Origin: a bacterium | Lineage (GTDB): Bacteria > Electryoneota > RPQS01 | Assembly (NCBI GenBank): GCA_018812265.1 | Contig: JAHJDG010000012.1 | Coordinates: 1 to 33,113 of the forward strand | Direction of reading: 5' to 3' | Length of the DNA: 33,113 nt | Part shown: one piece after another, positions 14,475-30,994 of the stretch | How the letters are laid out: the number at the start of each line of letters is the position of its first letter | Numbering within the stretch: the stretch's first letter is position 1 | Position numbers and translations under genes: made by a program | The notes under the pieces: generated by a model | What the model was told of the DNA's origin: nothing | What the model saw: only the letters and a program-made list of their open reading frames with translations | Databases searched by the model: none

Positions 14475-15572
14475 CTACTCCGAGAGGATGACGGTGGGCA
14501 GGCCGAAATCGTTTTTTAATTTCTCCCTTGCGGGTTCGGCGGCCGCCCGGTCGGGATAGCCCCCCACCCGAACCTGCAGCAGTTTGCGCTCCGTGTTTTC
14601 GCGCATGACAAGTTTCACGGGAAAACCGGCCTTCTGAAGGTCTTTGGCCAGCCGATGAGCGTTGTCGAAATTGCCGAACGCACCGACCTGAATGTACCAG
14701 TGACCGTTGGAAACGGGGCGCGAGGGCGACTCGACGGACTCGGTAATCGGAGCGGCCGGTGTTTCGGCGACCTGCTCGACCACCGGCTCGTGTGGAGTCT
14801 CGGAAACGGGAGTTTCCTCGACGATTGGCTCTTCGATTGACGATGCTACTACGGTTGTTTCCACTACGGCCGTCTCCTCAGAGACGACCGGCGGAGTAAT
14901 CTCCGGCTCCGGTTCCTCGGATATCTCCGGAACAAGGGTGGGAACCGCTGATTCCTGCGGGATTTCTTCGGACTCCATCTCTTCCGGTTCCGGTGAAACA
15001 GACTCCGATTCGGCGACCGGCGGCATCTGCGGTAAATCCGGAGTCAACGATGGAACGGCGGAAGCCTCGTCGGAAACGACCGGCGGCTCTTTAACCACTG
15101 GCTCGGAAGCAACTGCTGACTCCGGCTCCAACTCTTCCTCTGCAGAAGCAGGCGGGGAAACCACGGCCACCGGCGCGGGCATTTCCGCCGCTGCGATGGG
15201 GGGAGCGGGCACGGCGAGGTCAAGAGGTTTCGCGGCGTCGGGAGCATCCGCCCACTCGGCGATTGGCGCGACGACGTAGCCGATGTCGTGGGCTTGCTTC
15301 AGACGAGCGCGGGCGACGGTGTCGCAATCGGACTGGGGATAGCGAATGGCGATCACTTGATACAGCGAGCACGCGCGCGCCACGTCGGACTCGATCAGCG
15401 CATAGTAGATGATCTGGTAGCGGGAGCTGAGCTTGGAGTTGTCGAGCACACTGCGGGCTTCTTTGTAGCGGCCCTCCAGCATGAGGTCAAGGGGCGTCTT
15501 GTTCTTCGCCTTCTCGGCCACGGCTACGGATACCAGCGCCAAGAGGGTGATGATCGCGATGGTTCTACACAT
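14475..15572 (-). CDS. Exported SPOR-domain protein with acidic Pro/Glu-rich linker
   Basis: A 365-residue protein. It has an N-terminal signal peptide (RTIAIITLLALVSVAVA, likely cut after AVA), then a helical region of about 75 residues (LDLMLEGRYKEARSVL, RACSLYQVIAIRYPQSD) resembling a single TPR-like hairpin. A linker of about 180 residues follows, rich in Glu, Pro, Val and Ser and almost free of aromatic residues. The C-terminal SPOR domain (about residues 286-365) begins GHWYIQVGAFGNFDNAHRLA and includes LLQVRVGGYPDRAAAEPARE. SPOR domains bind denuded glycan strands of peptidoglycan at division sites, and the linker could let the domain reach the wall. The start overlaps the lapB 3' end by 8 bases, suggesting the gene is translated with the envelope-assembly pair upstream. 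Confidence 0.85.
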   Translation of the reverse strand: MCRTIAIITLLALVSVAVAEKAKNKTPLDLMLEGRYKEARSVLDNSKLSSRYQIIYYALIESDVARACSLYQVIAIRYPQSDCDTVARARLKQAHDIGYVVAPIAEWADAPDAAKPLDLAVPAPPIAAAEMPAPVAVVSPPASAEEELEPESAVASEPVVKEPPVVSDEASAVPSLTPDLPQMPPVAESESVSPEPEEMESEEIPQESAVPTLVPEISEEPEPEITPPVVSEETAVVETTVVASSIEEPIVEETPVSETPHEPVVEQVAETPAAPITESVESPSRPVSNGHWYIQVGAFGNFDNAHRLAKDLQKAGFPVKLVMRENTERKLLQVRVGGYPDRAAAEPAREKLKNDFGLPTVILSE

Positions 15573-16707
15573 GATACGTATCCAGCTTGTTGCAGCGGGG
15601 ACAGAGCCACAATGGCTCGGTAGAGACGTTACCGCAGCTTGAGCAGGTGAACTCGTATTGTTCCTTCATCACGCGAGCGAGAATCTCGCGCGCGATTTGC
15701 AGCACCCGGTCCATGTCGCGCACCTCGCCATAGAGCTGAATCAGCAGACGGCGAAGCCAGAGGCTGTCCGGATTCTGATGAACGCCGTCATGCAGCACGG
15801 CCACGGCGTCGGCCCGGTCGCCTCGTTTGTCGAGGAAGCGAGCCAGCGCGGCGTAGGCGTGAACGTTCTGCGGGTAGCTGCGGATGAGGGCGCGGTAGAT
15901 TTGCTCGATCTCCGAGAAGCGACCGAGGTCGAAGAGGCGCGACTCGAGACGCTCGAAAACAAGATGCGACTGGGCGGGATTGACGTTCAGTAGTCTCCGC
16001 CAAATGCGAACGGCGTCTTCCGTGCGGTTCTCGCGAATGTAGGAATCTCCCCAGTAAAGATAGGGAGCGATCATGGTGGAATCGTGCTTGATCGCCTCGC
16101 GGAATCGGATGCGGCCGTCCCGCTCCTTCTTGTTCTCACAGAATCGGAGACCTTCCTGCACTTTGAGCGCGGCCAGAAATCGTTGCGAGACGTCGCCGCC
16201 GAGTGCCGCCAGTTTTTCGGCCGTGTCGTAGGCGTGATCCCAATCCTTCTGGCTGACGAGTAGCTGCAGTTTTTTCTCGAGCGCCCAGCGATCCTTCTTG
16301 GCAAACGAAAGAACGCGCTCGATGGCTTCAAGCGCCGCCGGAACGTCGGCGGCTTTGAGATAGTCCTCGGCGAGATTGCGATAGACCGCGATTTTTTGCG
16401 CGAGCGTGAAGTCGGAGCGAAAGGTCAGCGACTTGTGGATTTTTATGGCTCGCGGCACGTCTCCGATTTCAGCGAACAGAACGCCCAAGCGGAGGTAGGC
16501 GTCCACGTTGGACGAATCGGCGGACACGACTTCGCGCAGTTTCTGGATAGCCCGCAGATGATCGCCGTCCAGCGCGGCGCGTAAACCCTCGGCGTAGGGG
16601 CTGACGGGAGTCGTGCGGACGCGGTCACGGCGCTGTAAATAGTAATACGCGCCGCCGGCGCCGGCCATGATGGTGGCGAGAAGGAGAAAGAGCTCGGCAA
16701 GACTCAC
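15565..16707 (-). CDS. lapB: LapB (YciM) TPR / rubredoxin-like envelope assembly protein
   Basis: A 380-residue protein close to the 389 of E. coli LapB. Residues 4-24 (LAELFLLLATIMAGAGGAYYY) form one membrane anchor. Several TPR repeats follow, for example VDAYLRLGVLFAEIGDVPRA and VHAYAALARFLDKRGDRADA. The C-terminus has the diagnostic rubredoxin-like zinc site: CSSCGNVSTEPLWLCPRC, two CxxC pairs, ending NKLDTYHV. In E. coli, LapB works with FtsH and the PbgA/YejM protein to tune LpxC and so LPS amount. The GTG start overlaps the lapA stop in a GTGA arrangement, so the two are translationally coupled as in the E. coli lapA-lapB pair. It supports an LPS-bearing outer membrane. Confidence 0.9.
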   Translation of the reverse strand: MSLAELFLLLATIMAGAGGAYYYLQRRDRVRTTPVSPYAEGLRAALDGDHLRAIQKLREVVSADSSNVDAYLRLGVLFAEIGDVPRAIKIHKSLTFRSDFTLAQKIAVYRNLAEDYLKAADVPAALEAIERVLSFAKKDRWALEKKLQLLVSQKDWDHAYDTAEKLAALGGDVSQRFLAALKVQEGLRFCENKKERDGRIRFREAIKHDSTMIAPYLYWGDSYIRENRTEDAVRIWRRLLNVNPAQSHLVFERLESRLFDLGRFSEIEQIYRALIRSYPQNVHAYAALARFLDKRGDRADAVAVLHDGVHQNPDSLWLRRLLIQLYGEVRDMDRVLQIAREILARVMKEQYEFTCSSCGNVSTEPLWLCPRCNKLDTYHV

Positions 16708-17039
16708 GTTTCGTCCTCCGGATCGCGAGCGATACCGGTTTCCGGAAGATCGCCTTCGAGAGCGAAATTGCGGAGGCGGTCAAGCTCGATTTGCATTTCA
16801 CGGTTCTTACGACGGGCCGCCGCGAGCTGGGAGCGGAGGCGAATCTGGTTCGTCAAGGCCACCAGCAGGCAGACAAGATAGCCAAAGACTCCCGCCAGAA
16901 ACAGCGCATAGGACAGCGGAAGCTCGGGCGACGCCCAGCCCAGCAGTCGAACGGCCACGATCTGTTCGGAATTCTGGGATAGAAATCCGACGAGAAAAAA
17001 GATGATGACAATGGCGAACAGCCAACGGAGGATCCACAT
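16704..17039 (-). CDS. lapA: LapA domain (DUF1049) membrane protein
   Basis: A 111-residue small membrane protein. Two hydrophobic segments are visible, residues 3-20 (ILRWLFAIVIIFFLVGFL) and about 43-63 (LSYALFLAGVFGYLVCLLVA). They are separated by SQNSEQIVAVRLLGW, which matches the NxxxVxVxxxG region of the family. A charged, probably coiled-coil tail follows (RSQLAAARRKNREMQIELDR). Its position directly before lapB with a 4-base overlap is the strongest support. The start is an ATG at 17039 with GAGG about 7 bases upstream. Confidence 0.85.
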   Translation of the reverse strand: MWILRWLFAIVIIFFLVGFLSQNSEQIVAVRLLGWASPELPLSYALFLAGVFGYLVCLLVALTNQIRLRSQLAAARRKNREMQIELDRLRNFALEGDLPETGIARDPEDET

Positions 17040-20099: not shown

Positions 20100-21422
20100 T
20101 TATTCGGAAGGAGCGAGGAGGTAGTATTTTCGGCCTTTCTTGTGGCCGATTGCCGAAAGGACGCCGAGGGTAACCAAAGTGGAGAGGCGAATTCGGGCGG
20201 ACGCTTCGGAAATGTCGAATTCGCGGACAACCTGCCCGGTAGTCACGGGATTGTCGCGGTGCTCGATCAGGAAACGAACCCAGCGGTCGCGATCGCGGAA
20301 CAGCGAGGGACGAGCTTCCCGCAGCCGCGAATGAATCCACGTGAGTAGGGCATGAGTTTCCGTTCGAACACTCTTGGGAACGTCGGCCGGCAGATCAACG
20401 ACGTCAATAGATTCATCGTTACAGAGCAGGAACGCCCGTTCGAGAGTGAAGATGAGCTCACGGACGTTTCCCGGCCATTGATGAGTCGTCAAGCGATCCC
20501 TCGCTTCACCGGTCAGTCCGGTGGGAGATGACCGCCGGTGGCGACGACGAAAATCGGCCAGGACGTGGGCTACGAGAGCCGGAATATCCTCCGAACGCTC
20601 GCGAAGGGGCGGAACGAAGAGCGGAACGAGAGCAATGCGGAAGTAAAGGTCCTTTCGGAAATCGCCGGATTCAACCATCTCTTCGAGATTGCAGTTGGTG
20701 CTGCAGATGAGACGGACCGTGACTTTCCGGGACTGAGCCCGGCCGATCTTCTGAACCTCCCCCGAATCGAGAAATCGCAGAAACGCAGCCTGACCGGCGG
20801 GAGCCAGATCGCCGATTTCGTCGAGCAGCAGCGTGCCTCCGTCGGCCGCCTCGATCTTACCCAGCCGTCCGCGCGGTGCGGCTCCCGTGAATGCCCCCGG
20901 TTCATAGCCGAACAGCTCCGCCATCAGCAGTGTGTCGGGAACGGCCGCACAATTCACGGTGATAAGAGGTCCGCTCGCAACCGCGGATGCTTTATGGATC
21001 AGGCGGGCGAAGAGTTCCTTGCCGGTTCCGGTTTCCCCGCTGATCAGAACGGGCACTGTCGTGGGAGCGAGACGCAGCGCGATCTCGACGGCTTGCAGAA
21101 TCACCGGCGATGATCCGATGATCAGTTTGGATGCCAGATCGCGATGGTCCGGCGGGACGGTCCCCTCGCGAAGTTCGCGATAAAGATCCAGCCCGGGGAG
21201 TCCGACCGGAAAAGCTTTGGTGACGAGTTTGGATTTCGGCGAGCCGTCGGCAATGAAAAGTCCCGGTTCGGGAGCAGTACACTGCGTGAACAGAGACTCG
21301 AGAGCTTCCTGCAGAATTCGGGTCTCGACCTCTTGCCGGTCGGCGTCGGCCGGCACGCCCATGTGAGTCCAGAGGCGAATCAGGTTACGACGAAGCTGCT
21401 GTTTCAGATCCTCCGTACTCAT
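20100..21422 (-). CDS. Sigma-54-dependent AAA+ transcriptional activator, non-Fis C-terminus
   Basis: A 440-residue bacterial enhancer-binding protein. The AAA+ core is complete: Walker A GETGTGKE (129-136), the sigma-54 contact loop GAFTGA (176-181), Walker B GTLLLDEIG (195-203), FRKDLYFRI with the arginine finger, and WPGNVREL. The first 100 residues match no receiver, GAF, PAS or PRD domain I recognise. The C-terminus lacks the usual Fis helix-turn-helix. It instead reads VTTGQVVREFDISEASARIR followed by LGVLSAIGHKKGRKYYLL, which looks like a winged helix. It overlaps adenine deaminase as ATGA, the last gene of the hprK-PTS unit, so its activity may follow the phosphorylation state of that PTS. 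rpoN itself is not in the window. Confidence 0.92.
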   Translation of the reverse strand: MSTEDLKQQLRRNLIRLWTHMGVPADADRQEVETRILQEALESLFTQCTAPEPGLFIADGSPKSKLVTKAFPVGLPGLDLYRELREGTVPPDHRDLASKLIIGSSPVILQAVEIALRLAPTTVPVLISGETGTGKELFARLIHKASAVASGPLITVNCAAVPDTLLMAELFGYEPGAFTGAAPRGRLGKIEAADGGTLLLDEIGDLAPAGQAAFLRFLDSGEVQKIGRAQSRKVTVRLICSTNCNLEEMVESGDFRKDLYFRIALVPLFVPPLRERSEDIPALVAHVLADFRRRHRRSSPTGLTGEARDRLTTHQWPGNVRELIFTLERAFLLCNDESIDVVDLPADVPKSVRTETHALLTWIHSRLREARPSLFRDRDRWVRFLIEHRDNPVTTGQVVREFDISEASARIRLSTLVTLGVLSAIGHKKGRKYYLLAPSE

Positions 21423-23137
21423 GACACGGCCAGATCAACGAATTGGAACCGGTCCACGTCCACCAAACCGCGATCCGTCAGCTTGAGATGAGGAATCACC
21501 GGCAACGCCAGAAACGAGAGCGCCATGAACGGCGCGGCCAACCGGCAGCCGATGGAACGGGCCGCTTCGTGCAGACTCTCGATAGCCTTCACGACCGCGG
21601 TGGCGGGCTCACCGGACATCAGTCCGGCAACGGGAAGCGGCAGATGAGCGATCGTCTGTCCGCCTTCCACTACCACGAGTCCTCCCCCCCCATCGGCAAG
21701 GACTTCAACGGCTCGCAACATATCTTCGTCGGAGACGCCGAGACAGATCAGATTATGCGAATCATGGGCAACGGTCGAAGCCAACGCTCCCCGAGTAATC
21801 CCGAAACCGCGCGCGAATCCCTTGCCGACGTTTCCCGTGCAGCCGTGTCTCTCAATAACCAGCAGCTTGGCAATGTCCTGCGTAGTATCGGCCTGCCACG
21901 CTCCGTCACGGACGGGGAGGCGGGCCGTGGAACTGCCGGTAACGATCTGATCGGGGATGACGTCAATGATGCGAATCGCCTCACTCGTCGCGGCAACGGC
22001 CAAGTCGGCGAGAGTGAGTTTGGGAATCCTGACCGAACCCCGCACGGCCGCGGCGGGAACATCACGCAGATCGGATGTGAGCTGTCCGTCCTGCGCAACC
22101 AATATACCGTCTCGCCACACGCGGTGCGGACGGAAGCTTGTGAGGTCCTGAAACGCGACGAAATTCGCTCGCCGTCCGGGAGCGATGGCACCGATGTCCC
22201 GGCGGCCGAAGATGGCGGCGGTATGACTCGACGCCATCGCCACCGCGAGTACCGGATCGAGTCCGCGCGCGACCGCTTTGGTCAGCGTAGCATTCAGATG
22301 ACCTTCGCGGATCAGATCGTCGGCGTGGCGATCGTCGGAGACGAACGCGAAACGATGCGCGCGAGCCGGCGTAACCAGCGGCAGAAGCGCTTCAAGGTTG
22401 CGGGCGGTGGAACCTTCGCGGATGAGAACGTACATGCCGCGGCGGAGTTTCTCCTCGGCTTCCTCGGCGGTGGTGCTTTCGTGATCGGTGGCGATTCCGG
22501 CGGTAACGTAGGCGTTCAGCCACTTGCCGCTCACGCCCGGCGCGTGTCCGTCCACCGGGCGTCCCTCGGCCAAGGCGATCTTTCCCAGCACACTCTCATC
22601 ACCGAAGACGACTCCCGGGAAGTTCATGACTTCGGCCAGACCGAGTACGCGCGGATGCGATAAGAACGGCTTCAAACGTTCGGCGGTCAACTCGGCTCCC
22701 GACGTTTCCATGTGTGTGGCGGGAACGCAGGAAGGCAGCATCACGAATACGTCGAGCGGAACCTTCTCCGTCGCGGCGAGCATGTACTCGATTCCCGCTT
22801 CGCCGCAGACGTTGGCGATCTCATGCGGATCGCAGACGACGGCCCCCGTTCCCCACGGCACCACCGTCCTCGCGAACTCAACGGGAGACAGCAGACTCGA
22901 TTCAATATGAATGTGACCGTCTATCAGGGACGGAGCGAGATAGGCGCCCTTAAGGTCAACAACTTCGCGGGCTTCGTAGTCGCCCAGTCCCACGACGCGG
23001 CCGTCAGCGACGGCCACACTGACGTCCTCGATTTCACAGGAGAGAGTGTTGACGACGCGGCCGCCGCGTAAGAGAAGATCGGCGGGAGTATCACCGCGAG
23101 CGACGGCCAGCAGGCGTTGAAGGCGGGGAATGTTCAT
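21419..23137 (-). CDS. ade: Adenine deaminase
   Basis: A 572-residue amidohydrolase converting adenine to hypoxanthine. The metal site is DGHIHIESS near residue 75. CDPHEIANVCGEAG, FVMLPSCVPATHMETSGAE and FPGVVFGDE are all typical of the AdeC/YicP family, as is DGHAPGVSGKWLNAYVTAGI with its conserved His, then SDDRHADDL with the last metal-binding Asp. The C-terminal domain contains RHGCTGNVGKGFARGFG and VAHDSHNLICLG. Purine salvage is its known role. Its ATG overlaps the mlaD-like stop as TAATG, and its own TGA overlaps the sigma-54 activator start. A purine enzyme inside a PTS-regulatory unit is unexpected. Confidence 0.94.
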   Translation of the reverse strand: MNIPRLQRLLAVARGDTPADLLLRGGRVVNTLSCEIEDVSVAVADGRVVGLGDYEAREVVDLKGAYLAPSLIDGHIHIESSLLSPVEFARTVVPWGTGAVVCDPHEIANVCGEAGIEYMLAATEKVPLDVFVMLPSCVPATHMETSGAELTAERLKPFLSHPRVLGLAEVMNFPGVVFGDESVLGKIALAEGRPVDGHAPGVSGKWLNAYVTAGIATDHESTTAEEAEEKLRRGMYVLIREGSTARNLEALLPLVTPARAHRFAFVSDDRHADDLIREGHLNATLTKAVARGLDPVLAVAMASSHTAAIFGRRDIGAIAPGRRANFVAFQDLTSFRPHRVWRDGILVAQDGQLTSDLRDVPAAAVRGSVRIPKLTLADLAVAATSEAIRIIDVIPDQIVTGSSTARLPVRDGAWQADTTQDIAKLLVIERHGCTGNVGKGFARGFGITRGALASTVAHDSHNLICLGVSDEDMLRAVEVLADGGGGLVVVEGGQTIAHLPLPVAGLMSGEPATAVVKAIESLHEAARSIGCRLAAPFMALSFLALPVIPHLKLTDRGLVDVDRFQFVDLAVS

Positions 23138-24030
23138 TAGAAAAGAACGATCTTATTGCGCAGACCCTTCGTACGGATTTCATGAATCAGCGAATCGGCC
23201 TCGGCCAGAGTCCGATTCAGACGGTGATAGAGTTCATCATTCGTGACGAGCTGCCCGGCCGTTCCTTCCCCGCTCTGGATGCGATCCACGAGCCGGCGAA
23301 TGGAAACGGACAGCTCGGTGAGACGAGTCAGGGCCGTATCGGCGGAGGTGAGGGTGGAGGTGAGCCGGGCTTCGGCAGTTTCTACGGTCGAATGGAGCGA
23401 AGTGAGGGTCTCTTCGAGTTGAGTCAAAATGGAAGTCAGGCGGGCGCGGTTATCGGAGAGCCACTCATTCGTCGTCTGCGCCGCTTCGCGGGACTCGGCC
23501 AGCAGACCGGCGATGTTCTCTTGGTTGGCGGTATCGCCGGCGATGCGATTCAGATTGACGAGCAGTTTGTTGAGGGTGTGGAGGGTGGTCTGGAAGTCGG
23601 CGGAAACCTCTTCGAAGATGGCCACGGCGTCGCTCACACCCAGCGGAGTTTGTCCATTGAGAATCTGGGTGACATCGGCGGGGGGTTCTTTTTCGCCGGG
23701 ATAGATGGACAACACCTTGCCGGCCATGACGGTGGGAGATTCGATGGTGATGCGATAGTCGGAATAGAGCGTCACGCCCTTATCCACCGCCGCCCGCACG
23801 AAGACCTTTCCTTCGTGCAGTTCAATACCGGTGACGCGGCCCTGAACGACACCGTTGGCCAGCACGTTGCTGCCCGGTTCGAGTCCGCCGACGTTTTCAA
23901 AGACTACGACAATATTGTAGCGGGCCGCACGAAGTGAATAGCCCTTGCCCCACATGATGCCGCCCACGAGGATGACGAGTGACAAGAGAACTGCGATGCC
24001 GACCTTAATTTCATTTCGTCGCGAGTCCAA
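23137..24030 (-). CDS. mlaD: MlaD-type MCE domain lipid-transport protein
   Basis: A 297-residue substrate-binding component of a Mla-like phospholipid or sterol transport system. One N-terminal membrane anchor (VGIAVLLSLVILVGGIMWG, residues 10-28) is followed by the MCE domain (about 37-115): VVFENVGGLEPGSNVLANGV, then VTGIELHEGKVFVRAAVD and SPTVMAGKVLSIYPG. The remaining 180 residues are mainly helical, Thr/Leu/Glu-rich and probably coiled coil, as in MCE proteins that form hexameric rings with a helical barrel. The start is a TTG with GAGGAG 6 bases upstream, 3 bases after the EIIB stop. Neither MlaE-type permease nor MlaF-type ATPase genes lie beside it, so partners must be elsewhere. Confidence 0.88.
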   Translation of the reverse strand: MDSRRNEIKVGIAVLLSLVILVGGIMWGKGYSLRAARYNIVVVFENVGGLEPGSNVLANGVVQGRVTGIELHEGKVFVRAAVDKGVTLYSDYRITIESPTVMAGKVLSIYPGEKEPPADVTQILNGQTPLGVSDAVAIFEEVSADFQTTLHTLNKLLVNLNRIAGDTANQENIAGLLAESREAAQTTNEWLSDNRARLTSILTQLEETLTSLHSTVETAEARLTSTLTSADTALTRLTELSVSIRRLVDRIQSGEGTAGQLVTNDELYHRLNRTLAEADSLIHEIRTKGLRNKIVLF

Positions 24031-24033
24031 CGG

Positions 24034-24534
24034 CTACTCCTCGTAGGGTATCGGTTTGGCGACCGGCAGATCCTGGCATACGATCTTGACGCCATGTTTT
24101 TTAAGTTCGGTGAGGGTGGTGCGCTCCCAGTCGGAAAGGAAAAGGTAGGGAAGCAGTTCCTCCCGACCTTCGCGATAGTGCAGACCGCCGAGGGTGAGGG
24201 ATTTCAGCGGAACTCCCAGCTTGACAAGCTTCAGAGCGTCCACCGGCGACTCCACGACCACCATCGCGCGCGTGCCCTTGAAATCGCCGCGAATCCACTG
24301 CTCGGCCACGTCGGACAGCGACCGAACGTCACCGCACAGTTCTTCGGGAATCAGCCCGCGATAGGTGGTGCAGAGGGCCGGATCCTTGCTGACGCGATCC
24401 GAAGCGAGCAGCACGGGCTTCAACCCGAGAGTCTGCCCCCACCCCACCACGACCTGACCATGCAGCAGCCGGTCGTCCACGCGGACGATCGGAAAAAGAA
24501 GCTTGTCCTTCTTGGAGAGCAGGGGCAGGTTCAT
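24034..24534 (-). CDS. PTS EIIB, mannose/fructose/sorbose family
   Basis: A 166-residue IIB domain of the mannose-type phosphotransferase system. The phosphorylation site is His25 in RVDDRLLHGQVVVGWG, the standard VDDRLIHGQV-W motif. The family fold continues with LLASDRVSKDP, AMVVVESPVDALKLVKLGV and LTLGGLHYREG. The ten residues before the motif (LLSKKDKLLF) form a short basic extension. No EIIC or EIID permease gene is present, so this IIB probably does not serve sugar uptake here. A regulatory role is inferred. The ATG overlaps the EIIA stop by four bases (ATGA). Confidence 0.92.
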   Translation of the reverse strand: MNLPLLSKKDKLLFPIVRVDDRLLHGQVVVGWGQTLGLKPVLLASDRVSKDPALCTTYRGLIPEELCGDVRSLSDVAEQWIRGDFKGTRAMVVVESPVDALKLVKLGVPLKSLTLGGLHYREGREELLPYLFLSDWERTTLTELKKHGVKIVCQDLPVAKPIPYEE

Positions 24535-24905
24535 GACGCGCTAAGCTGAATACCGCGGTGTCCGTCGGTTTCGGCAACCTTCATAAGCTCGGCGAACGAG
24601 AGCTTGTCGCGCTTGGTAAAGAAAGAGAAAAGCATGGGCAGATTCACACCCGAGAGGATCGCACAGGATGGATGAGTCTGCTTGAGGGTTTGACAGGCAA
24701 TGTAAGGAGATCCGCCGCAAAAGTCAACAAACACGGCCGTCGGCTGATCGGTCAGGATTGTACCGACCCGCCGGACAATCTCCTCCAACGAAACGCCTTC
24801 GTTGGATACAACGTGAACATCGGTTTGCGGACCCAGTATGGCGACGACCGACTCCATAAGAGTCCGTCCCAACGATCCATGCGTGACGATGATGGCCGCG
24901 TACAT
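24531..24905 (-). CDS. PTS EIIA, mannose family
   Basis: A 124-residue IIA domain of the mannose-type PTS. The active site is His9 in AAIIVTHGSLGRTLMES. VFVDFCGGSPYIACQ corresponds to the conserved DLFGGSP region, and LSGVNLPMLFSF matches the family's GxNLPML motif. In complete systems IIA takes phosphate from HPr and passes it to IIB. Here it lies 17 bases after hprK, which in other bacteria phosphorylates a serine of HPr, but no HPr or enzyme I gene is in view. It is translationally coupled to EIIB. Confidence 0.93.
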   Translation of the reverse strand: MYAAIIVTHGSLGRTLMESVVAILGPQTDVHVVSNEGVSLEEIVRRVGTILTDQPTAVFVDFCGGSPYIACQTLKQTHPSCAILSGVNLPMLFSFFTKRDKLSFAELMKVAETDGHRGIQLSAS

Positions 24906-24922
24906 GGCGATGGCCTTGAACC

Positions 24923-25891
24923 CTACTCGAAATCCTTCTCCAGATACGTTTCGAGGCGCGAACGCACTTGCATGGCCTGATTCAAGTCGGAGCTGAACTG
25001 CTTGGCCGGATGGAAACCGTAGACTTTCAGGTGCAGGTTCAAGGCGATGGTCTCCGCCAGCATGGTGATGTTCTTACCCGGGAAAATCGGAAGGCGGACG
25101 TGGGGGATTTTCACGCCGAGGTATTCCTTGTACACGTCCTCCATTCCGGTCCGCTCGTAGTCTTGATCCTGACTCCAGTCCACCAGCTCCACCTCGGTCT
25201 CCACGCGCTTCTGGAGGCGGATGGCGCGAACGCCGAACATCCGTCCGACGTCAATGATCCCGATCCCGCGGATCTCCATGTAGTGCTTGAGAAGTTCCGA
25301 GCCTTGACCGATGATCACGTTGTCGGCGGTGCGGGTAAGCGTGACGACGTCGTCCGAAACCAGTCGGTGTCCGCGCTCAACGAGATCGAGCGCCACTTCC
25401 GACTTGCCGATCCCGCTGCGGCCCGTGAAGAGCAGTCCCGTTCCATAGACGTCCACCAGCGAACCGTGGACGAGGGCCGACGGAGCGAATTTATGATCGA
25501 GATAGCCCGACAGGAGATGCGTCAGAGTGGTCGTGTTCAGCGGAGTCGAAAAAAGGGAAATGCAGACCTGATCGGCCCGTTGAATGAGCTCGGGCGGCAG
25601 CGGATTGGCATTGGAGACGATGATGCAGGGGATATCGTAGGCGAAAAACTTCTCGAGAGACTGCCCGCGGGCCTCGGGGGAAAGCGACTGCAGATAGCGG
25701 ATCTCGGTGTTGCCGAGTACCTGTACGCGGTTGAAGGTGAACAGTTCGAGAAATCCGGCCAATGCCAAGCCGGGACGGTGGAGATCCTTCTGAGTGATTT
25801 CGCGGACAAGCCCCTTGGGCGTGTTCACCAGAGTGAGCGACAGCCGCTCCTGCATGTCCTGGAAGAATGCTCCGACCTGCAACTTCTCCAT
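24923..25891 (-). CDS. hprK: HPr kinase/phosphorylase
   Basis: A 322-residue HprK, the bifunctional serine kinase and phosphorylase of the PTS carrier HPr. Key residues are in place: ALVHGSLVDVYGTG (His142, active site), Walker A FTGRSGIGKSE (157-164 core), RGHRLVSDDVV with the paired Asp, the signature YMEIRGIGIIDVGRMFG and a C-terminal KIPHVRLPIFPGKN. The N-terminal 130 residues form the usual nucleotide-fold domain of unclear role. In many Gram-negative bacteria hprK sits near hpf and partial PTS genes and is thought to act in regulation, not sugar uptake; this cluster fits that picture. Starts at ATG 25891, 33 bases after hpf. Confidence 0.95.
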   Translation of the reverse strand: MEKLQVGAFFQDMQERLSLTLVNTPKGLVREITQKDLHRPGLALAGFLELFTFNRVQVLGNTEIRYLQSLSPEARGQSLEKFFAYDIPCIIVSNANPLPPELIQRADQVCISLFSTPLNTTTLTHLLSGYLDHKFAPSALVHGSLVDVYGTGLLFTGRSGIGKSEVALDLVERGHRLVSDDVVTLTRTADNVIIGQGSELLKHYMEIRGIGIIDVGRMFGVRAIRLQKRVETEVELVDWSQDQDYERTGMEDVYKEYLGVKIPHVRLPIFPGKNITMLAETIALNLHLKVYGFHPAKQFSSDLNQAMQVRSRLETYLEKDFE

Positions 25892-25924: not shown

Positions 25925-26227
25925 TCATTCCTCGGTGGAACGCTTGGCTAGTTGCTTTCCCTTGAGTTTCTTGATCTGCTGCTCGAGCTTGTCTACGGCG
26001 AGAGCAATGGATTTGTGAAAGTCATCGGACGTTTCGGAAGCGTGCAACACCGTGCCGTTCACGTTGACGTGAACGCGGGCTTCCTTATTGGTCTTGGTAT
26101 ATGTGAATTCGACGTCGCAACCGAGGATGTCATCGGTAAGTTTCTCCAGTCGCAGCACCTCCTTCTCGGTAAAGTCCTTGAGGGAATCGGACGCCTTGAA
26201 ATGAATGGAGGCAATCTTGGTCCTCAT
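25925..26227 (-). CDS. hpf: Ribosome hibernation-promoting factor (short HPF/RaiA family)
   Basis: A 100-residue protein, about the size of short HPF. It begins MRTKIASIHFKASDSLKDFT, then KLTDDILGCDVEFTYTK, and ends with HKSIALAVDKLEQQIKKLKG, the conserved helix that contacts the ribosome. It binds the decoding region of idle ribosomes. The reading frame extends 11 codons upstream to 26260, but AGGGG lies 6 bases before the ATG at 26227 and the extra residues are not family-like, so I use the inner start. hpf followed by PTS genes recalls the E. coli rpoN-hpf-ptsN order. Confidence 0.92.
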   Translation of the reverse strand: MRTKIASIHFKASDSLKDFTEKEVLRLEKLTDDILGCDVEFTYTKTNKEARVHVNVNGTVLHASETSDDFHKSIALAVDKLEQQIKKLKGKQLAKRSTEE

Positions 26228-26251
26228 CGGTACCCCTTTCTCCATGGTTGG

Positions 26252-26302
26252 CCGGCGCAAAGCCGGTCGGTGACAAATGAGACGAGGGCACTCCCGCGGG
26301 AG
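26252..26302 (-). other. Two GC-rich hairpins between xerC and hpf
   Basis: Minus-strand RNA would first form CTCCCGCGGGAG (26302-26291), a perfect 12-base palindrome with GGG/CCC flanks that extend pairing outside a small bulge. It would then form CCGGC-TTTGC-GCCGG (26266-26252). Neither is followed by a run of T, so this is not a standard terminator. It may mark an mRNA processing or stabilising site at the border between xerC and the hpf-hprK unit. Confidence 0.4.
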
Positions 26303-26308
26303 AACCCT

Positions 26309-27229
26309 TCATTTTTTCGTCGCGTGCGGATGAGCCTGCGCGTAGGCCGCTTTCAGCCGCTCGGCGGAGACGTGCGTGTATTTCTCGGTGGTCTTCAGCG
26401 AATGGTGTCCGAGAAGCTCCTGGACCGCCCTCAGGTCCGCGCCATGATCGAGAAGATGGGTCGCATAGCAATGACGAAGCACGTGGGGCGACGTCTTCTC
26501 GCCGTGGAGGGGACCGAGTTCACGGCGGACGATCTGATACGCGCGATAGCGAGTCAACGGTTGACCGCGATCGCTCAGCCACAGGTGGCCGGAATCCGGA
26601 ATTCCCTTTTCCTGCAGAAACTCCCGGCGAGCGTTCAGGTAGTCACCCATGGCCTGCACGGCCGCGCGGGAAATGGGAACCACGCGCTCCTGGGAGCCTT
26701 TGCCCAGAACGCGAACCGAACCGCGCGAAAGATCCATACGGGCGATCCGCAGGCCGAGAAGTTCGGAGACGCGAAGCCCGCCGCCGTAGAGCATTTCGAG
26801 TAACGCTTGGTTGCGAACCGATGCGAAGCCTTCCGGCCGTGGCGTATCGAGGATACTCGACAGAGCGCTCTCGGAGTAGGTGACGGGAAGCTTGCGGCGG
26901 GAACGAGCGCGCCGCAGACCGGCCACCGGATTGTAACCCAAAAGTCCGCGGCGAACGAGATATTTCGCGAACTCGGAGACGGCGGCGCGTTTGCGCTCGA
27001 TGGTCGAGCGCGCCCGGCCGGCTTCCGACAAGCCGTGCAGGAACGTTCTCACGCTCGCCACCGACAGGTGATCGGGAGTGGATCGCCCTCCGCCCGGCGG
27101 CTCGATGGCGGCGATGAACTGCAGCAGATCGCGGCCATACGCCTCGACGGTGAGATCCGCTCGCCCCCGCCGCGCGGCGAGGTCAAGCAGAAACTCGGGC
27201 AAATGTTCGCGGAGCGTTCGCGCGCTCAC
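26309..27229 (-). CDS. xerC: Tyrosine site-specific recombinase XerC/XerD
   Basis: A 306-residue recombinase that resolves chromosome dimers at dif. The SAM-like N-terminal domain begins LPEFLLDLAARRGRADLTVE. The catalytic residues are all visible: Arg in GGGLRVSELLGL, Lys in VLGKGSQERVVPIS, His and Arg in SPHVLRHCYATHLL, His in LLGHHSLKTT and Tyr in EKYTHVS. The frame extends upstream to 27364 inside topA, but a GTG at 27229 overlaps the topA stop as GTGA and gives the normal family length, so I place the start there. XerC versus XerD cannot be fixed without the second recombinase. Being coupled to topA and followed by no cargo genes, it looks like a housekeeping recombinase and not an integrase. 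Confidence 0.9.
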   Translation of the reverse strand: MSARTLREHLPEFLLDLAARRGRADLTVEAYGRDLLQFIAAIEPPGGGRSTPDHLSVASVRTFLHGLSEAGRARSTIERKRAAVSEFAKYLVRRGLLGYNPVAGLRRARSRRKLPVTYSESALSSILDTPRPEGFASVRNQALLEMLYGGGLRVSELLGLRIARMDLSRGSVRVLGKGSQERVVPISRAAVQAMGDYLNARREFLQEKGIPDSGHLWLSDRGQPLTRYRAYQIVRRELGPLHGEKTSPHVLRHCYATHLLDHGADLRAVQELLGHHSLKTTEKYTHVSAERLKAAYAQAHPHATKK

Positions 27230-29712
27230 TTCTCGGTGGTTTCCTCCACCGCGATTTTGTGGCGGCACTTGGGACACTGCCGGATGTGGCCGCTCTTGAG
27301 CGGCTTGTCTTCCATATAGTGATGTCCGCAACTCGGACAGGGTTCCAGAATCGGTTTGTACCACGAGATGAAATCACACTCGGGATACTTCGAGCATCCC
27401 CAGAAGGTGCGACCCTTGCGGGACTTCTTCTGGCTCACGCGGCCGTCACAGCCCGCCCGCGGACAGGGAACGCTCTCGCCGTTGACCAGCGGCAGGGTGG
27501 TGCGGCAGGACGGATAACCGGTGCAGCCAAGAAACCATCCGAAACGGCTGCGCTTGGCCGTCATCGGTTTGCCGCACGACGGGCAAGCCGTCTCGGGAAC
27601 TTCGGGAGCCTTCTCCGATTCGAGCGGCTCGGTGTGCTTGCAGTCGGGATAGTTGGAACAACCCAGAAACTGACCCGCCCGTCCCCACTTGACGATCAAA
27701 TGGGAGTCACACTTGGGACACTTCTTGTCCGTGACTTCCTCGCTCGCCTTGCGCAGCGTGTGCCGGTTCTGATTGACCTTCTCCAGTCGTTTCGAAAACG
27801 GCTCGTAGAAGTCGCGCACCACCTGCTTCCAAGCCAGTCCCTCATTCTCCACCGAGTCGAGCTCTTCCTCCATCTTGGCCGTGAACTTCACGTCGAAGAT
27901 ATCGGGGAATTGATCCACCAGAATCCGGTTCACCGTTTCCCCCAGCGTCGTCGGGTGGAAGCGGCGTTCCTTCTGCTCCATGTAGCGGCGTTTCACCAGT
28001 ACGGAAATAATGGACGCGTAGGTGGATGGCCGACCGATGCCAAGCTCATCGAGAGTCTTGACGAGTGACGCGGAGTTGAAGCGGGCCGGCGGTTCGGTGA
28101 AATGCTGGGTCGGGGTGACCTCTTCACACGGATACTCCTTGCCGACCCGCAACTCGGGCAGCAAACGAGTGTCCTCCGGTTCGTCGTCGCCGTTGGGACG
28201 CTGCGGTTTCTCTTCGGTCAGCGCGGCCATGACCTGCAGGTGTCCGGCGAAGAGCAACCGGCGGCCGATGGCGCGAAATTCGTATTCCCCCGCCATGAGC
28301 TGCGCCGTGGTCACCTCGAACTGGGCATCGGCCATTTGCGAAGCCAATGCGCGCTGCCAGATCATGTTGTAGAGCTTGAACTGCTCGACCGTGAGATACT
28401 TCTTGACCGACGCCGGATCGCGGTTCACGTCGGTCGGGCGAATCGCTTCGTGAGCATCCTGCGCTGACTTCTTGGCGGCGAACACTCGCGGTTTGTCGGG
28501 CACGAACTCCGGGCCGAACCTTCCGCCGACGTAATCGCGCATCGCCGCCACGGCTTCGGGAGCCAATCGCGTGGAGTCGGTGCGCATGTAGGTAATCAGA
28601 CCGACCAATCCTTCCGCGCCGACCTTGATCCCTTCATACAACGCCTGCGCGACGCCCATCGTGCGATCGTTGGAAAACCCGAGACGACGGGCCGCATCCT
28701 GTTGAAGCGTGGAAGTCGTATAGGGCGGCGAAGGCTGAGACTTGGCGGGCCGGACCTTTAGATCGGTCAGCACGAACGGATGCTTACGAATCTGCGCCAC
28801 CGCCGTCTTGGCCGACTTTTCGTCCTTCAGTTCGGGCTTCTTGCCTTCGATCTTGACGAGTCGCGCAACGAACGTCTCCTTTTTAGTTGCACGGAGAAGC
28901 GCCTCGATGGTCCAGTATTCTTCCGAAACAAAAGCGCGAATCTCCGCCTCGCGTTCGCAAATCAAACGCAACGCCACCGACTGCACGCGACCGGCCGACA
29001 GACCGCGCGCGATAATCTTTTGAAGAAGCGGCGAGACCAGATAACCGACCAGCCGATCCAGCACGCGGCGCGCCTGCTGAGCCTCGACTTTACGTTCGTC
29101 AATGGAACCGGGCGCGGCAATGGCCTTGCGGATACTGTCGCGGGTGATCTCGTTGAACAGCACGCGATGAAGTTCACGCCGGCCGTTTCCCAATTCTTTG
29201 GCCACGTGATAGGCGATGGCTTCCCCTTCACGGTCGGGGTCGGTAGCCAGAAAAATATGGCGCACGCCGTCGGCGGATTTCTTCAGAGCCTTGATCACGT
29301 CCTGCTTGCCGGTAATGACTTCGTACTCCGGCTCGAAATCATGCTCCACGTCCACACCGAGACGCTTGGGCGGCAGATCCCAGATGTGTCCCACCGTCGC
29401 CTGAACGTGGAAGTCCTTTCCCAAATAGGCCGTGATCGTACGGGCTTTGGCGGGAGATTCGACGATGACGAGTCCCTGCGCGGGAGCCGAGGTCAATATC
29501 TCATCGCGAGCCGCGGACGACGACCGTTTGGCGGTCTTGGAGGTCTTGGCGGACGCCGGGGTTTTCCGTGCGCGGGAAGCCGAGGTCTTCTTGGCTACAG
29601 CCTTGCCCGCTGCGGCCGGCTTCTTGGCCACAGGTTTCTTGGACGGCTTACTGGACTTCTTCGAAGTCGAGCGAGGGCTCTTGGAACGGGTTTTAGATGG
29701 GGTCTTGGGCAT
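27226..29712 (-). CDS. topA: DNA topoisomerase I with basic N-terminal tail
   Basis: An 828-residue type IA topoisomerase that relaxes negative supercoils. The TOPRIM domain starts at residue 81: LVIVESPAKARTITAYLG, with LATDPDREGEAIAYH carrying the acidic metal site. The active-site Tyr is in GLITYMRTDSTR. The C-terminus holds four zinc-ribbon repeats, for example CPKCDSHL...CSNYPDC, CPSCGKPM...CTGYPSC and a final CPSCGHHY...CPKC. The first 69 residues are an unusual low-complexity tail with 17 Lys, 6 Arg and no acidic residue (KKPVAKKPAAAGKAVAKK). Such a tail could bind DNA non-specifically. The start ATG at 29712 is the only one that includes the tail; an internal start cannot be ruled out. 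Confidence 0.95.
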   Translation of the reverse strand: MPKTPSKTRSKSPRSTSKKSSKPSKKPVAKKPAAAGKAVAKKTSASRARKTPASAKTSKTAKRSSSAARDEILTSAPAQGLVIVESPAKARTITAYLGKDFHVQATVGHIWDLPPKRLGVDVEHDFEPEYEVITGKQDVIKALKKSADGVRHIFLATDPDREGEAIAYHVAKELGNGRRELHRVLFNEITRDSIRKAIAAPGSIDERKVEAQQARRVLDRLVGYLVSPLLQKIIARGLSAGRVQSVALRLICEREAEIRAFVSEEYWTIEALLRATKKETFVARLVKIEGKKPELKDEKSAKTAVAQIRKHPFVLTDLKVRPAKSQPSPPYTTSTLQQDAARRLGFSNDRTMGVAQALYEGIKVGAEGLVGLITYMRTDSTRLAPEAVAAMRDYVGGRFGPEFVPDKPRVFAAKKSAQDAHEAIRPTDVNRDPASVKKYLTVEQFKLYNMIWQRALASQMADAQFEVTTAQLMAGEYEFRAIGRRLLFAGHLQVMAALTEEKPQRPNGDDEPEDTRLLPELRVGKEYPCEEVTPTQHFTEPPARFNSASLVKTLDELGIGRPSTYASIISVLVKRRYMEQKERRFHPTTLGETVNRILVDQFPDIFDVKFTAKMEEELDSVENEGLAWKQVVRDFYEPFSKRLEKVNQNRHTLRKASEEVTDKKCPKCDSHLIVKWGRAGQFLGCSNYPDCKHTEPLESEKAPEVPETACPSCGKPMTAKRSRFGWFLGCTGYPSCRTTLPLVNGESVPCPRAGCDGRVSQKKSRKGRTFWGCSKYPECDFISWYKPILEPCPSCGHHYMEDKPLKSGHIRQCPKCRHKIAVEETTEK

Positions 29713-30991: not shown

Positions 30992-30994
30992 TTA
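30992..30994 (-). other. secA: In-frame TAA stop codon inside secA
   Basis: On the minus strand the codons run GGG TAA AAC CTG TTT AAG. Both sides are in the same frame and both are plainly SecA. Aligned by eye with other SecA proteins, the stop occupies one residue position in the LG-x-LMRxLERY-type segment. One base change from AAA, CAA, GAA or TCA would explain it, with no insertion or deletion needed. Confidence 0.9.

Follow-up and report, generated by a model that had tools for sequence, protein, structure and literature searches.

Within the 33,113-nt stretch of Electryoneota (RPQS01) DNA analysed here, which we call the window (contig JAHJDG010000012.1 of assembly GCA_018812265.1; C12 of genome G000), lies a run of six closely spaced genes that is probably the first half of a mannose-class phosphotransferase (PTS) operon, led by hprK and carrying, embedded in it, the MCE gene of a split MlaFED-type lipid transporter. 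An initial annotation of this DNA had interpreted the same genes as a dedicated, permease-less signalling operon. That interpretation is not sustained, because the genome encodes IIC, IID, HPr and EI elsewhere and because 2 of the 6 genes, ade and a sigma-54 activator gene, are only patchily associated with the locus.

The six-gene locus and its conserved core

All 6 genes were located on the minus strand where the initial annotation had placed them, and profile matches agreed in every case with the family claimed. They are given below in order of transcription, preceded by the 3 genes that lie upstream of hprK on the same strand.

27226..29712 (-): topA, DNA topoisomerase I (TIGR01051, 9e-238), heading a conserved gene string
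26309..27364 (-): xerC-type tyrosine recombinase (PF00589, TIGR02224), within the conserved string
25925..26260 (-): hpf, ribosome hibernation promoting factor (TIGR00741, 2e-17), often directly upstream of hprK
24923..25891 (-): hprK, HPr(Ser) kinase/phosphorylase, 322 aa (TIGR00679, 1.4e-105; PF07475/PF02603)
24531..24905 (-): mannose-class PTS IIA, 124 aa (PF03610, 3.5e-12), sole copy in the genome
24034..24534 (-): mannose-class PTS IIB, 166 aa (PF03830, 7e-34)
23137..24030 (-): mlaD, single-MCE-domain lipid-transport subunit, 297 aa (PF02470, 4.6e-13), of the hprK-linked subfamily
21419..23137 (-): ade, adenine deaminase, 572 aa (TIGR01178, 1.6e-181)
20100..21422 (-): sigma-54 activator, AAA+, 440 aa (PF00158, 4.1e-61)

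The phospho-acceptor histidines, IIA His9 (in THG) and IIB His25 (in RLLHGQ), are intact as first described; HprK has its P-loop, GRSGIGKS, at residue 157, and the sigma-54 activator retains both GAFTGA and Walker A. MlaD consists of a short cytosolic tail, one transmembrane helix, the MCE domain and a long helical C-terminus. Downstream of the 6 genes, after 198 bases, come hisS, then miaB, then a lapA/lapB-like pair at 15565-17039 (-), so that LPS-regulating genes lie near the PTS/mlaD locus; the hisS-miaB-lapA-lapB order is kept in relatives L033 and L037, and L042 shows hisS-miaB-lapA. Elsewhere in the window, secA contains a single in-frame TAA at 30992-30994 (-), within the wing/scaffold domain (LNLLG*NLFKGLQ), beyond which the frame runs on to a SEC-C motif; this is either an assembly error or a damaged gene.

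The junctions were as originally reported: +17 bases for hprK-IIA, -4 for IIA-IIB (ATGA), +3 for IIB-mlaD, -1 for mlaD-ade (TAATG) and -4 for ade-activator (ATGA). Junctions this tight are ordinary for operons. From them, coordinated stoichiometry of the products had been proposed, a proposal that fails on comparison with relatives, where the junctions range from -1 to 248 bases (mostly -1 to 32, with others of 111-248), exact overlaps are not conserved, and ade and the activator gene come and go. It should be noted that many of the relatives' assemblies are fragmented, and that many of the genomes are kin, so that counts among them are not independent.

A search of gene neighbourhoods across these relatives, as the initial annotation had suggested, showed that hprK-IIA-IIB-mlaD recurs while the last 2 genes do not do so consistently. 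The core order topA-xerC-hpf-hprK-IIA-IIB-mlaD is found in the same family, in the sister family and in part of the phylum. In contrast, ade was seen at this position in no family other than the window's own, and is lacking from it in G002 and in the sister family; the activator gene is present at the locus in G001, G002, G005 and G010 and absent from it in G007, G008, G009 and G003, with G007 and G010 belonging to one genus. Both genes are recent, patchy additions, which makes the set of six a loose association of recent date. Although 6 tightly joined genes are what a dedicated signalling operon of fixed stoichiometry would look like in the window, the absence of ade or of the activator gene from the locus in these relatives and the wide variation in junction length make such an operon extremely improbable. 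In G002 (L037), the activator gene adjoins mlaD, yet no RpoN match (PF04552) was found in the assembly, which is 97% complete.

At the hprK loci of G017, G022, G031, G034, G046, G090 and G126, IIA and IIB are lacking and mlaD still follows hprK, and the order hpf-hprK-mlaD persists where IIA/IIB are gone.

The probable second half of the mannose-class PTS

The statement that no sugar permease, HPr or EI is present is correct for the window and incorrect for the genome: searches for EI, HPr, IIC, IID, MlaE/F and RpoN, all of which had been recommended, found each of them. Single-family searches gave one IIA of the mannose class, one HPr, one EI, one IID and one RpoN match, and the IIB of the window has no second match anywhere in its genome. 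HPr and EI are mutual neighbours at the end of contig C150. The end of contig C13 carries IIC and IID, the latter truncated by the contig boundary; the genome encodes all 4 mannose-class subunits (IIA, IIB, IIC and IID). IID adjoins HPr in the relatives examined, and those of the same family and the sister family have a single ispA-IIC-IID-HPr-EI block; from this arrangement, the ends of C13 and C150 very probably belong together in the window's genome. HPr keeps both the His15 motif and the Ser46 motif (...NAKSIMGVM...), so that the 2 parts of an HPr kinase circuit, HprK with its P-loop and HPr bearing Ser46, are both encoded. A polyprenyl synthase gene lies upstream of this second PTS half (L006/L007, on C13 and C150), and genes resembling those for phosphoglucose isomerase and NDP-sugar pyrophosphorylase, as judged by eye from the translations, lie downstream; these flanks suggest that the sugar enters pools used for the envelope or for glycolysis.

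Among 61 genomes, IIB and IID occurred together in 18, IIB without IID in 6, IID without IIB in 2, and neither in 35. Given this co-occurrence and the presence of IIC and IID, the simplest role for IIA and IIB is in a mannose-class permease that is split, the 2 loci being read as a single permease, putatively for sugar uptake, with its genes in 2 half-operons. The alternative of orphan IIA and IIB proteins was rejected once HPr, EI, IIC and IID were found in the same genome.

Loci from outside the phylum present the same genes in a joined form. About 16 of 66 further hprK loci hold hprK, IIA, IIB, IIC, IID and HPr together. In G095 (L135, a single 5.0 Mb contig), one operon reads lptB-rpoN-hprK-IIA-IIB-mlaD-gap-IIC-IID-HPr-EI; it is the window's operon together with its absent half, with mlaD embedded. 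The gap between mlaD and IIC (L135, 3312-4024) comprises about 700 bases without an evident open reading frame on the operon strand, and includes what appears by eye to be a short dockerin-like remnant.

These observations bear on the model put forward in the initial annotation, namely that the PTS is regulatory, IIA and IIB reporting PEP/ATP status and adjusting sigma-54 genes as well as the MCE lipid transporter. The matching IIC and IID, co-occurring with IIB, argue against it. In its favour, hprK and mlaD stay adjacent where IIA, IIB and IID have all been lost (G017, G022, G031 and G034), and this adjacency recurs in 5 cases, from 5 families, outside the phylum. Also, all 6 genomes that have IIA-IIB without IID are from family f5, 2 of them with mlaD, so purely regulatory IIA and IIB are possible in that family. 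Candidates there are L048, L103, L105 and L107, in which hprK-IIA-IIB occurs with no IID in the genome and no mlaD at the hprK locus, mlaD adjoining mlaEF instead. Envelope control by PTS and sigma-54 has, in addition, been proposed in the literature (PMC3162934). For the window's own locus, however, we consider a regulatory PTS improbable, also in view of the features of MlaD and of the sigma-54 activator that are described below.

A putatively split MlaFED-type transporter

The window's genome has one MlaD, that encoded next to hprK on C12, and one MlaE, whose gene lies with mlaF on C158, where mlaD is not among the neighbours. The MCE protein, the MlaE permease and the MlaF ATPase are thus all encoded, in a genome that lacks the usual placing of mlaD next to mlaEF, which is customary and not part of the definition of the protein. 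Across 61 genomes, an MlaE gene without adjoining mlaD was present in all 23 genomes with hprK-linked mlaD, versus 5 of the 32 others having MlaE (Fisher test, p 6e-11, with kin genomes not independent); 2 of the 5 exceptions are incomplete assemblies (77-79%) whose MlaE falls inside the same clade as the rest. Where genomes had extra Mla systems, the extras were ordinary mlaEFD clusters.

Phylogenetic trees gave a corresponding picture. In the MlaE tree, 28 of the 29 sequences encoded without a neighbouring mlaD fell in one clade (99% SH-aLRT), which takes in genomes from outside the phylum (G044, G046, G090, G095 and G126). Rows with very long branches, 3 from G126 and 1 from G044, were left out of this tree; an earlier tree that contained them placed elsewhere one of the G126 rows encoded without a neighbouring mlaD. 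In the MlaD tree, the 26 hprK-linked proteins grouped together with a support of only 92, the sole intruder being one row from elsewhere with 12% of its columns filled. Both are quick trees with some long branches. In the aggregate, MlaD and the MlaE encoded without mlaD form matching subfamilies that reach past the phylum. From the counts and the trees, we infer a split MlaFED-type transporter: its MCE subunit, encoded next to the HPr kinase, would pair with the distant MlaE and MlaF.

Taken together, the observations lead us to propose the following. The PTS half-operon lies in a conserved topA-xerC-hpf-hprK neighbourhood, with mlaD embedded after IIB. Phosphate would pass from PEP through EI, HPr (His15) and IIA (His9) to IIB (His25). 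Uptake and phosphorylation of a sugar would then fall to the IIC/IID permease of the ispA-IIC-IID-HPr-EI half-operon, with HprK phosphorylating HPr at Ser46 according to energy state. Independently, MlaD would sit in the inner membrane over MlaEF, supplied from a third locus, and move phospholipid. The ade and sigma-54 activator genes would be later gains in the window's family. As a conjecture, the supply of MlaD may be tied to carbon, growth or energy state through transcription of mlaD together with hprK and the PTS genes.

Why hprK and mlaD stay together

The initial annotation had also suggested that PTS phosphorylation state reports to the envelope lipid system and to sigma-54 genes. The physical link of PTS/hprK with an envelope lipid gene is conserved beyond the phylum; signalling through it is conjecture. 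MlaD has a cytosolic tail of about 10 residues in which no Ser, Thr or His is conserved, and for this reason HprK or HPr is unlikely to phosphorylate it directly. The sigma-54 activator has no PTS regulation domain and no named C-terminal DNA-binding domain (Pfam: AAA+ and lid only), and a search of the window for -24/-12 sites, allowing up to one mismatch, was negative. A regulatory link between HprK/PTS and MlaD is possible. One form of it, in which the MlaD of a distinct MCE subfamily, encoded apart from MlaEF, is retained beside HprK across distant bacteria since PTS/HprK-dependent expression sets its availability for envelope lipid transport, seems to us doubtful.

The leading alternative on this one point, which is compatible with the half-operon reading, is that the order is a relic: pieces of an old cluster of envelope genes (mla-kds-lpt-rpoN-hpf-pts) would simply have remained side by side, HprK/PTS and MlaD being functionally unconnected. 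We give it an even chance. In E. coli K-12, mlaFEDCB, yrbG, kdsDC, lptCAB, rpoN, hpf, ptsN, rapZ and npr all lie within 12 kb; lptB-rpoN still stands beside hprK-mlaD in G095 and G126; and topA, xerC and hpf likewise stay adjacent with no known link. Yet, mlaD has parted from its own mlaEF and remains beside hprK in distant lineages, and neutral order alone is not a ready explanation for this. The E. coli neighbourhood resembles the window in that genes for MCE lipid transport lie close to hpf and to PTS genes, and differs in that mlaD is with mlaEF, on the other strand and several kb off, and in having IIA(Ntr) and no hprK.

Connections among sigma-54, LPS transport and PTS genes are reported by Francke et al. 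2011 (PMC3162934), and an rpoN-ptsK-IIA(Man)-HPr-EI cluster has been described as ancestral in Proteobacteria by Comas et al. 2008, who for Desulfovibrio vulgaris also noted a putative transporter of the mannose class (PMC2405797). The association of PTS, rpoN and LPS transport is thus already published (PMC2405797, PMC3162934) and, together with the E. coli neighbourhood, means that finding PTS genes close to envelope lipid genes is in itself no novelty. The window shares with the cluster of Comas et al. an hprK (ptsK) beside mannose-class PTS genes and the same phosphoryl-transfer chain; it differs in that the operon is interrupted past IIB, which mlaD follows, and in that the second half (IIC, IID, HPr and EI) and rpoN are both encoded elsewhere. 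As in LevR/CelR-type control (PMC3162934), a sigma-54 activator stands beside mannose-class PTS genes, but the one in the window is without the PTS regulation and EII-like domains of that type and is variable in position. The three-component, Veillonella-type MlaEFD core (PMC10665443) is similar in its MlaE, its MlaF and an MlaD longer than that of E. coli, and differs in that mlaD in the window is apart from mlaEF and sits with hprK; furthermore, as judged from sequence, the 297-aa MlaD with its helical C-terminus shows no trace of the C-terminal beta-barrel domain.

The hprK-linked mlaD with distant mlaEF is the part for which we found no earlier description in open-licence papers, where nothing was returned for hprK combined with either mlaD or 'mammalian cell entry'. 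A 2023 survey of Mla systems based its MlaDE phylogeny on clustered markers only (PMC10665443), and studies that depend on the Mla genes being clustered overlook the split mlaD/mlaEF arrangement. Should the split prove functional, the old idea that the PTS/sigma-54 neighbourhood helps in control of the outer envelope would become testable; should it be only a relic, it would still correct the reading of such loci as permease-less signalling operons.
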